Source of the DNA: Candidatus Omnitrophota bacterium | GTDB taxonomy: Bacteria; Omnitrophota; Koll11; VGKN01 | Direction of reading: 5' to 3' | DNA length: 8,421 bases | NCBI GenBank assembly: GCA_016867055.1 | Contig: VGKN01000049.1 | Coordinates: forward strand, 1 to 8,421 | Part shown: positions 2,939-3,584 of the stretch, one piece after another | Layout of the letters: every line of letters begins with the position of its first letter | How positions within the stretch are numbered: the first letter of the stretch is position 1 | Program-made: the position numbers and the translations under genes | Notes under the pieces: model-generated | Told to the model about the DNA's origin: nothing | The model's input: only the letters and a program-made list of their open reading frames with translations | Database searches by the model: none

Positions 2939-2963
2939 GCGCGCCTGGGGCGACTACGAACGC
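2937..2963 (-). pseudogene. Displaced tRNA-Arg 3' end with CCA (att-like remnant)
   Basis: The minus strand repeats the 3' end of the intact tRNA-Arg: 17 bases from 2955 to 2939 are identical to 3146-3130, then a one-base insertion, then seven more identical bases. Acceptor strand CAGGCGC and discriminator G are followed by CCA here (2939-2937), whereas the intact gene has CTA. Integration into a tRNA 3' end typically leaves a short duplicate of that end at the far side of the insert. The extra base in the T-loop makes it non-functional. Confidence 0.75.
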
Positions 2964-3092: not shown

Positions 3093-3130
3093 AAAATCCC
3101 TTTTTTGCGTTCTCGTTGTCAAAGAAGTAG

Positions 3131-3456
3131 CGCGCCTGGGGCGACTCGAACGCCCGACCCACTGCTTAGCATACCGCACCGAATTACTCCGGCCTTTAAA
3201 GTTGCGGTCTGGACTTTCTCTTAGGCATCTCAGCCTCGCTGTGTAAAGTCTCTACACTCTCCTGAGGTCTCGGGATAGCTCGGTGTTGCCCCGAATATTT
3301 CAGGGTATCCACCGAATTAACAGCGTCCACTCCATAGGTTCATTTCCCTATGAAGGCTCCCAATTTTGGTCCCTCGCTCCCGCTCGGGATCAATTCGTCC
3401 CGAAGATTCGGGATTCATTGAAAGGCAGTTGCTCTATCCAACTGAGCTACAGGCGC
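3131..3456 (-). tRNA. tRNA-Arg(UCU) interrupted by a group I intron
   Basis: Exon 1 (3456-3422) holds acceptor GCGCCTG, D-stem GCTC/GAGC, anticodon-stem ACTGC and loop bases CTT. Exon 2 (3169-3131) holds CTAA, GCAGT, variable GGGTC, T-arm GGGCG-TTCGAGT-CGCCC, acceptor CAGGCGC and discriminator G. Joined, the loop is CTTCTAA and the anticodon is UCU. All stems pair exactly, which confirms the exon boundaries. The bases after the discriminator are CTA, so the CCA end must be added or repaired enzymatically. The gene follows tRNA-Pro by 49 bp and probably shares its promoter. The plus-strand reading frames across this region are shadows. Confidence 0.93.
3170..3421 (-). ncRNA. Group I self-splicing intron (252 nt, IC3-like)
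   Basis: The catalytic core can be folded by eye (minus strand, high to low coordinates). P2-type hairpin: CATAGG/CCTATG. P3: CGCTGT (3325-3320) with ACAGCG (3242-3237). P4: TTCGGTG (3316-3310) with CACCGAG (3285-3279). P7: GACTTT (3250-3245) with AAAGTC (3217-3212). P8: AGGC with GCCT (3236-3223). P9: ACCGCA (3208-3203) with TGCGGT (3178-3173). The S-like element is AAGAGAAAGTCC (3222-3211). The 5' exon ends in U, which can wobble with G of a GAGG guide sequence, and the intron ends in G (3170), as group I chemistry requires. It inserts between tRNA positions 34 and 35, the same place as the tRNA-Leu(UAA) introns. No homing endonuclease is encoded. P1 extension carries the TCCCGA...TCGGGA palindrome. 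Confidence 0.92.
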
Positions 3457-3505: not shown

Positions 3506-3584
3506 TGGTCGGGGCGAGTGGATTTGAACCACCGACCTCCTGCTCCCAAAGCAGGCGCTCTAAACCAAACTGAGCCACGCCCCG
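3506..3584 (-). tRNA. tRNA-Pro(UGG)
   Basis: Complete cloverleaf: acceptor CGGGGCG/CGCCCCG starting with the C1-G72 pair usual for bacterial tRNA-Pro, D-stem GCTC/GAGC, anticodon stem CCTGC/GCAGG with loop TTTGGGA (anticodon TGG), T-arm GGTGG-TTCAAAT-CCACT, discriminator A and encoded CCA (3508-3506). It is the first gene of the minus-strand tRNA transcript, about 44 bases from the predicted start site, with tRNA-Arg 49 bp downstream. Confidence 0.96.

Follow-up and report, generated by a model that had tools for sequence, protein, structure and literature searches.

An apparently mosaic group I intron in the tRNA-Arg(UCU) gene of an Omnitrophota bacterium

Introduction

Within an 8,421-nt stretch of DNA from Candidatus Omnitrophota bacterium (contig VGKN01000049.1; the whole stretch is called the window here), the anticodon of a tRNA-Arg(UCU) gene is interrupted by 252 nt. 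What kind of element occupies this position, how would a usable tRNA be obtained from such a gene, and from where did the element reach the site? Cyanobacterial introns in tRNA-Leu and tRNA-fMet are the classic cases of group I introns in tRNA genes, and the initial annotation of the locus proposed a group I intron here as well, either transferred from a tRNA-Leu(UAA)-type intron or belonging to an independent lineage.

Results

A tRNA-Arg(UCU) gene split within the anticodon

The two minus-strand exons (3456-3422 and 3169-3131) rebuild tRNA-Arg(UCU), with the insert lying between U34 and C35 (Table 1). The junction is forced, since only CUU/CUAA (the slash marks the joint) yields a seven-base anticodon loop; the insert so delimited begins with U and ends with G. 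When the exons were joined, ARAGORN called the product tRNA-Arg(tct), which bears out, with exact coordinates, the cloverleaf that had been drawn from the two halves. Run on the window without introns, the same program reported only tRNA-His and tRNA-Pro, and with introns allowed it called the split gene tRNA-Glu(UUC) with a misplaced junction. An exon-pair finder gave no match on the plus strand of the window and none scoring at least 18 in a control of 588,008 bases, reversed or complemented; in 80 other loci (1,082,944 bases, both strands) it gave two matches, L016 and L043, the latter starting in an intact tRNA-Arg. Upstream of the split gene, 21 of 36 rows of relatives likewise show a Pro-like anticodon loop when scanned with a loose motif, one row (L108) being a repeat of another (L081).

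Table 1. Coordinates of the split gene and of the intron helices within the window (a slash within a motif marks the splice site)
Feature	Position	Strand	Remarks
tRNA-Pro(UGG)	3506..3584	-	immediately upstream of the split tRNA-Arg(UCU)
5' exon of tRNA-Arg(UCU)	3422..3456	-	positions 1-34; ends in ...CUGCCUU
Group I intron	3170..3421	-	252 nt, without long ORF; first base U, last base G (3170)
3' exon of tRNA-Arg(UCU)	3131..3169	-	C35 to discriminator base; CCA not encoded
P1, 5' strand CUU/UC	3420..3424	-	spans 5' splice site 3422/3421; predicted pairing, P1 invariant
P1 extension, two-hairpin palindromic stretch	3370..3420 (approximate limits)	-	
P1, 3' strand (internal guide GGGAG)	3357..3361	-	GGAGCYY in 36/36 typed introns
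P2 hairpin	3330..3355	-	3355-3347 with 3338-3330; double changes at 8/9 pairs
P3, 5' strand	3320..3325	-	with 3242-3237; double changes at 5/6 pairs, the sixth kept in only 6/23 rows
P4, 5' strand	3310..3315	-	with 3285-3280; double changes at 4/6 pairs
P5 hairpin	3289..3305	-	3305-3303 with 3291-3289; double changes at 1/3 pairs
P4, 3' strand	3280..3285	-	
P6 hairpin	3260..3275	-	3275-3273 with 3262-3260; double changes at 3/3 pairs
P7, 5' strand GACUUU	3245..3250	-	pseudoknot partner 3217-3212; 100% paired; one pair with double change, five never vary
P3, 3' strand	3237..3242	-	
P8 hairpin	3223..3236	-	3236-3233 with 3226-3223; double changes at 3/4 pairs
P7, 3' strand AAAGUC	3212..3217	-	
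P9 domain	3173..3208	-	outer stem 3208-3204 with 3177-3173; inner stem 3192-3189 with 3182-3179; GUAA loop; lineage-B type

A conserved and covarying core

The fold of the RNA stood out from its shuffles (z -4.84), none of 100 being as good. In an alignment of 23 sequences (19 from a lineage A and four from a lineage B, defined below), helices P2 to P9 with the P7 pseudoknot were paired in 96.8% of 1,058 cells, and double changes were found at 32 of 46 pairs; neither value was reached by any of 500 shuffles, and slid versions of the helix set were only 32-43% paired. The number of further pair types was less telling, as 5 of the 500 shuffles reached it. RNAalifold, which cannot draw P7, placed double changes at 37 of 51 pairs in the same alignment. 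Of the elements previously noted, P3, P4, P7, P8, P9, a U at -1 and a terminal G were present, and the 23 sequences covary in these helices except in the mostly invariant P7, which by homology would be the guanosine-binding helix. P5 is a short hairpin in the aligned introns, and a GNRA loop was seen by eye at the tip of P9 in 23/23 sequences; a small core without P5abc and a GNRA loop at the P9 tip are criteria of subgroup IC3, to which the introns may belong.

The pairing of the 5' exon with its guide, put at about four pairs in the initial annotation, is better taken as five: CUU/UC would pair with GGGAG (3424-3420 with 3361-3357), leaving a U.G pair at the splice site. GGGAG is preferred because GGAG stands directly before P2 in 36/36 typed tRNA-Arg(UCU) introns (those assigned to their tRNA by script) and is the sole candidate where P1 is short. 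A reading with GAGG, further upstream, was dropped, as this motif is missing from the short-P1 introns. The U at -1 and the terminal G were likewise found in 36/36 typed introns, both having been required by the typing script.

An alternative hairpin, GUGUA/UACAC, can be drawn at 3257-3241 (GUGUAGAGACUUUACAC), overlapping the P7 5' strand and P3. It is nearly invariant in lineage A, and may act as a switch, trap the RNA in a wrong fold or simply reflect the conservation of the core.

Lineage A escapes the general group I model

The Rfam scan that the initial annotation had put forward as a check did not find the intron: searched at E up to 1, the window gave no group I match, and neither did a short stretch at E up to 10. 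At its cut-off, which is a detection threshold and not part of the definition of a group I intron, RF00028 matched 0/18 lineage-A loci; for lineage B it matched 1 of 2 loci in one set and 2 of 3 in another. Homology was instead established with R2, a covariance model built from lineage A alone (18 sequences). Run at E up to 0.05 on 25 tRNA intron loci that are not of lineage A, six of them being lineage B, R2 found 23, against 0/5 controls. The set is not independent, since most of the 25 came via R1, a covariance model of the intron core built from Omnitrophota and partly from lineage A. The weakest matches were L133 (6e-4) and L135 (0.019), and those missed were L139 and L131, the latter of which passes RF00028. 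Seven loci had been obtained with RF00028 itself, and R2 found 5 of them; 12 of the 23 loci found by R2 pass RF00028, L126 and L133 among them. Because a model made of lineage A alone finds accepted tRNA introns and no control, lineage A is placed, by homology, among accepted group I introns, as a divergent branch that goes unseen by the general Rfam model.

Empty sites, that is, intact tRNA-Arg(UCU) genes, occur in G001, G002 and G004. The last two genomes share the arrangement of the window, with the RNase PH gene upstream of tRNA-Arg(UCU) and both genes on one strand. The conserved, covarying core, the empty sites and the homology to other tRNA group I introns together confirm the insert as a group I intron in tRNA-Arg(UCU), from which we infer that it splices.

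Host and distribution

The neighbouring AsmA-family gene matched 44 contig stretches, with no confirmed relatives among them, and RNase PH was used instead. The window RNase PH was closest to five Candidatus Omnitrophota/Omnitrophica contigs, at 64-69% identity in the best segment among the best 80 of 589 confirmed relatives, and by this marker sequence the host belongs to Omnitrophota.

BLASTN with the intron gave a match in 42 of 285 Omnitrophota genomes, some of these through the P1 repeat alone or over a short length. A script demanding both tRNA halves returned 28 distinct introns besides that of the window, all at 34/35 of tRNA-Arg(UCU), and L122 was added by eye. The exact 34/35 junction, which agrees with the insertion point annotated for the window, was found in 37 introns: that of the window, 35 typed by script and L122, the 36 others lying in 36 genomes. 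An intron occupies the same tRNA-Arg(UCU) site in at least 36 of 384 Omnitrophota genomes.

Other tRNA genes of the phylum are interrupted as well. R1 matched 161 of the 384 genomes at E 0.01, and distinct typed introns numbered at least 51 in CAU tRNAs (site 33/34; probably the initiator tRNA), at least 50 in Asn GUU (35/36), at least 36, including the window's, in Arg UCU (34/35), at least 10 in Tyr GUA (35/36) and at least 1 in Leu UAA (34/35). Left out of these tallies were 17 loci without a typed tRNA (L143-L150, L183, L186, L196, L250, L251, L259, L260, L280 and L295), two of which, L145 and L147, look by eye like 23S rRNA introns from their flanks. At least 115 genomes hold a typed intron, and in at least 26 of these, two or three different tRNAs are interrupted. 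Three different tRNA genes are interrupted by group I introns in G071, G195, G129, G081, G211, G177 and G390, and G071 also holds L145 and L147.

At E 0.001, R1 matched 20 of 299 genomes in the phylum of a betaproteobacterium, 3 of 148 in that of a Nitrospiraceae genome and 1 of 149 in that of Pelotomaculum, a phylum comparison that leans, since these control phyla were searched at a stricter E (0.001 versus 0.01) with a model from Omnitrophota. Among 16 places in other phyla (12 of the 20 plus 4), 14 could be typed, as Leu, CAU, Thr and Arg CCU and none as tRNA-Arg(UCU). Searches with BLASTN gave no match to the pre-tRNA in phages and none to the intron in plasmids.

Two core lineages at one site

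A P7 motif splits the 36 typed tRNA-Arg(UCU) introns cleanly into lineage A (20, window included) and lineage B (16). In the P3-P8 columns, identity is 0.43-0.61 between the lineages versus 0.68-0.97 within them (18 A and 4 B rows), and the core tree separates A from B with a support of 1.0 (118 columns). The P9 tree (42 columns) divides ten A introns from nine A and four B introns, again with a support of 1.0. The window thus has the core of lineage A and a P9 of the type found in lineage B. Alignment A2 lacks two of the 23 sequences of A1 (L118 and L119), the comparison of P9 group identities was made without L116, whose P9 goes with B in the P9 tree, and L122 enters no lineage comparison.

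The P9 type follows the host tRNA to a modest degree. Among 320 A-B pairs, the 19 whose exons are at least 97% identical have a mean P9 identity of 0.90, and the 271 whose exons are below 90% have one of 0.64; the correlation of exons with P9 is modest (rho 0.26) and is reached by 0 of 2,000 permutations. In eight A/B pairs with identical exons (73 nt), which are not independent as they represent 5 exon types, P9 identity is 0.78-0.98; the pair L109/L121 goes against the trend, with exons 97% identical and a P9 identity of 0.64. Intronless genes can have the same exons: those of tRNA-Arg(UCU) in G002 (L002, L082) are also found in the A-bearing L105 and the B-bearing L127, and L104 (A) and L121 (B) share theirs with the gene of G001 (L083). 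The simplest account is that the core would have been replaced by recombination ending in P9. A common P9 forced by the insertion site fails as an explanation, for ten lineage-A introns at the same site carry the other P9.

We placed these cores among other tRNA introns in an 82-row core tree (111 columns), whose alignment, short and fitted to R1, makes it indicative. The rows were taken from 102 matches, 20 matches of 11 lineage-B loci with an ORF or its trace having been dropped, and one source of 94 (L131) gave no match. Lineage A stands apart (support 0.956), B falls with the CAU, Leu and Thr introns (0.96), and Asn groups with Tyr (0.962) except for L135, an Asn intron of another phylum. 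In this tree the window core is not nested among Leu introns.

Of the two origins initially considered, the independent lineage is favoured for the core, which stands apart from the Leu, Thr and CAU introns, while the P9 is of the type of lineage B, which falls with those very introns. The best answer, judged from these comparisons, is that the window intron would be a mosaic.

Endonuclease ORFs and a palindrome in P1

The 252-nt window intron holds no homing endonuclease ORF. ORFs of the same look are found in 9 of 16 lineage-B introns (638-782 nt), and a shortened one in L120. The three ORFs tested matched PF11645 (PDDEXK_5), with E values of 7.6e-28 (L124), 1.6e-28 (L129) and 4.9e-13 (the shortened ORF of L120); the ORFs of L129 (E 2e-6) and L124 (E 1.2e-5) also matched 2OST, labelled a putative endonuclease, which we take to be I-Ssp6803I, of tRNA-fMet origin.

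At L107, a free-standing ORF resembling the lineage-B endonuclease was seen by eye about 17 bases past the tRNA 3' end, outside the lineage-A intron, a possible case of homing in trans. By eye also, the Asn introns L134 and L184 hold ORFs with HNH-looking CxxC/HH motifs and the CAU introns L141 and L201 hold I-Ssp6803I-like ORFs; endonuclease types may be specific to the individual tRNA sites. A protein of Synechococcus phage Sf-FR1 (PV340855.1, 163920-164318) is 41.5% identical to the L124 endonuclease, one of 4 phage records that match in all.

The suggestion that the P1 extension has taken up a genomic palindrome held up: it forms two hairpins, and its first 36 nt match places elsewhere in Omnitrophota outside tRNA-Arg introns, in G187 (92%), G142, G010, G212 and G167. 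The place in G187 (L308) comprises two hairpins over about 100 nt, and this element as a whole has 31 matches in G187 (itself counted), nearly all to its second half, one of them being the P1 loop of that genome's own intron (C75). Matches to the L308 element elsewhere are few (2 in G289, 1 in G007, 4 in G010, 2 in G002 and 1 in G004), and there were none in G071, G158 and G207. To judge by these matches, a repeat-like element sits in P1 of some members, and the 36-nt match suggests that the window palindrome is of the same mobile family as L308.

Other elements near the tRNA genes

A copy of a tRNA 3' end lies some 50-370 bases downstream both in the window (2939-2955 and 3130-3146) and at L004, L021, L105, L124 and L126. 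A copy of at least 13 nt lies within 500 bases downstream of 6 of 75 distinct tRNA 3' ends and upstream of 0 of 75, as if small elements had inserted at these ends and copied them in the process. The window also carries a serine recombinase ORF (Pfam Resolvase and Recombinase; 687-2156), which overlaps the end of tRNA-His (2107-2184) on the other strand, together with an inverted repeat of 135 nt (88%) with arms at 80-214 and 1978-2112.

The split gene is probably the sole copy in most relatives

A pattern for uninterrupted tRNA-Arg(UCU) matched 225 of 384 Omnitrophota genomes; as many genomes may be incomplete and variants are missed, such counts are lower bounds. By this pattern an intact gene is present in 2 of the 36 intron genomes (G334 and G380) versus 223 of 348 others (Fisher p 2.6e-12). 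In six window ORFs, the recombinase left out, AGA and AGG make up 65 of 92 Arg codons. As the pattern picks up no intact tRNA-Arg(UCU) gene beside the split one in 34 of 36 relatives, and given this share of AGA and AGG codons, splicing is probably obligatory and essential. Most arginine decoding in this genome would then depend on a ribozyme.

Discussion

We consider it very probable that the gene gives rise to a pre-tRNA containing a group I ribozyme, which would be removed in two steps, and that the intron belongs to an A/B family whose members exchange parts at one site. A guanosine bound in P7 would attack behind U34, which forms a U.G pair in P1; the freed U34 would then attack after the terminal G3170, joining the halves of tRNA-Arg(UCU) and releasing the intron, either unaided or with host help. 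Lineages A and B occupy the same tRNA-Arg(UCU) site, mostly in single-copy genes, and would swap parts, the core being replaced and the P9 next to the 3' exon being kept, as expected from homing or gene conversion that involves two occupied genes and resolves in P9. The window copy would have lost, or never had, the endonuclease ORF, and has a repeat-like palindrome in its P1 loop.

Other accounts of the locus fare less well. Were the gene a dead, interrupted copy whose insert no longer splices, another gene would have to supply tRNA-Arg(UCU), and two relatives (G334 and G380) do hold both an intron copy and an intact one. Against this, both exons of the window yield a complete tRNA, the other 34 of the 36 intron genomes are without an intact copy by pattern, and the window, by definition, keeps every column that does not vary among the 23 aligned sequences; we regard decay of this kind as highly improbable. 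Removal by proteins, a bulge-helix-bulge endonuclease and a ligase, is known for tRNA introns of archaea and eukaryotes. The host here is a bacterium, however, and a 252-nt insert with a conserved group I core, a U at -1, a terminal G and homology to Rfam group I introns leaves that mechanism a negligible probability.

A straightforward transfer of a tRNA-Leu(UAA)-type intron into tRNA-Arg(UCU) would agree with the use of the same 34/35 site, after U34, by proteobacterial Leu(UAA) and Thr(UGU) introns, and with the position of lineage B, which shares the P9 type of the window and falls with Leu, Thr and CAU in the core tree. It is nonetheless unlikely, since the lineage-A core separates from Leu, Thr, CAU and B with a support of 0.956, and the core identity of the window's P9 group to B is only 0.49-0.61. 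It might also be proposed that the intron is a switch tuning the supply of arginine tRNA, for instance through the GUGUA/UACAC hairpin or the P1 palindrome; the sole-copy pattern in relatives, the AGA and AGG usage of the window ORFs and the near invariance of the hairpin in lineage A would all fit. Yet four aligned lineage-B introns have other letters at the hairpin, relatives with empty sites do without any intron, and the invariance may stem from P7 itself, so that we judge a regulatory role very unlikely.

Returning to the mosaic family, a wider scenario seems to us plausible but somewhat short of probable. Throughout the phylum, two non-sister core lineages would have competed for the same single base position of a tRNA that is essential and mostly encoded by one gene copy, with P1-P8 swapped as a cassette between the 5' exon and a P9 that stays with the host tRNA. 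An anticodon-loop endonuclease, found inside B and free beside one A intron, would help, and the P1 loop would serve as a tolerated docking place for a mobile palindrome, giving three nested mobile layers.

Sites that are empty or filled by A or by B, in genes for identical mature tRNAs, offer a natural experiment on group I replacement and recombination. Since ARAGORN misses or misnames the gene and Rfam finds no intron, the tRNA counts of such genomes may be off.

Among known systems, the PDDEXK_5 endonucleases of group I introns such as I-Ssp6803I are matched by the lineage-B ORFs of L124 and L129; the window intron, in contrast, is without such an ORF, and the ORFs of its relatives sit in tRNA-Arg(UCU). 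Proteobacterial introns in tRNA-Leu(UAA), Thr(UGU) and Arg(CCU) (L138, L139, L296, L298, L300, L136 and L305) resemble the window intron in having an anticodon-loop site after a U, a terminal G and a related core, and R2 finds six of them, missing L139. They differ in the tRNA, and 3/7 (L296, L136 and L305) pass RF00028 versus 0/18 of lineage A; the CCU intron, moreover, lies at 36/37 and not at 34/35. A 2025 preprint reportedly concerns, by its title, tRNA introns of Patescibacteria, which would be similar in regarding uncultured bacteria and different in phylum.

Further reports deal with introns in fMet and Ile2 tRNAs (PMC8450103), with tRNA introns in general (PMC3984707), with insertions in cyanobacterial tRNAs for Arg(ACG), Gly and Lys (PMC5733544) and with a human tRNA (PMC12513839). 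A search of open-access literature, preprints excluded, returned no paper joining Omnitrophica with a group I intron, and the accessible passages of PMC12641178, which brings together Omnitrophota, tRNA and group I intron, describe no tRNA introns there.

The initial annotation took the familiar bacterial tRNA-Arg introns to reside in the CCU isoacceptor. CCU cases do exist, but that picture is incomplete, as a putative group I intron interrupts tRNA-Arg-TCT in Beggiatoa BOGUAY and Thiomargarita nelsonii, according to a passage of PMC4853749 citing MacGregor 2013. As described there, those introns are bacterial, are called group I and share the isoacceptor, whereas their hosts are sulfur bacteria of another phylum. 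The same passages tell of a Thiomargarita dsrA group I intron with a MITE, which is alike in that a dispersed repeat is nested in a group I intron and unlike in being an IA2 intron of a protein gene, the repeat of the window lying in the P1 loop of a tRNA intron. To go by these passages, the tRNA-Arg(UCU) site is not new for group I introns. The lineage, the phylum and the chimaerism were not found in the open-access literature searched without preprints, and within this known kind the Omnitrophota introns are a new lineage and make a case for mosaic introns.
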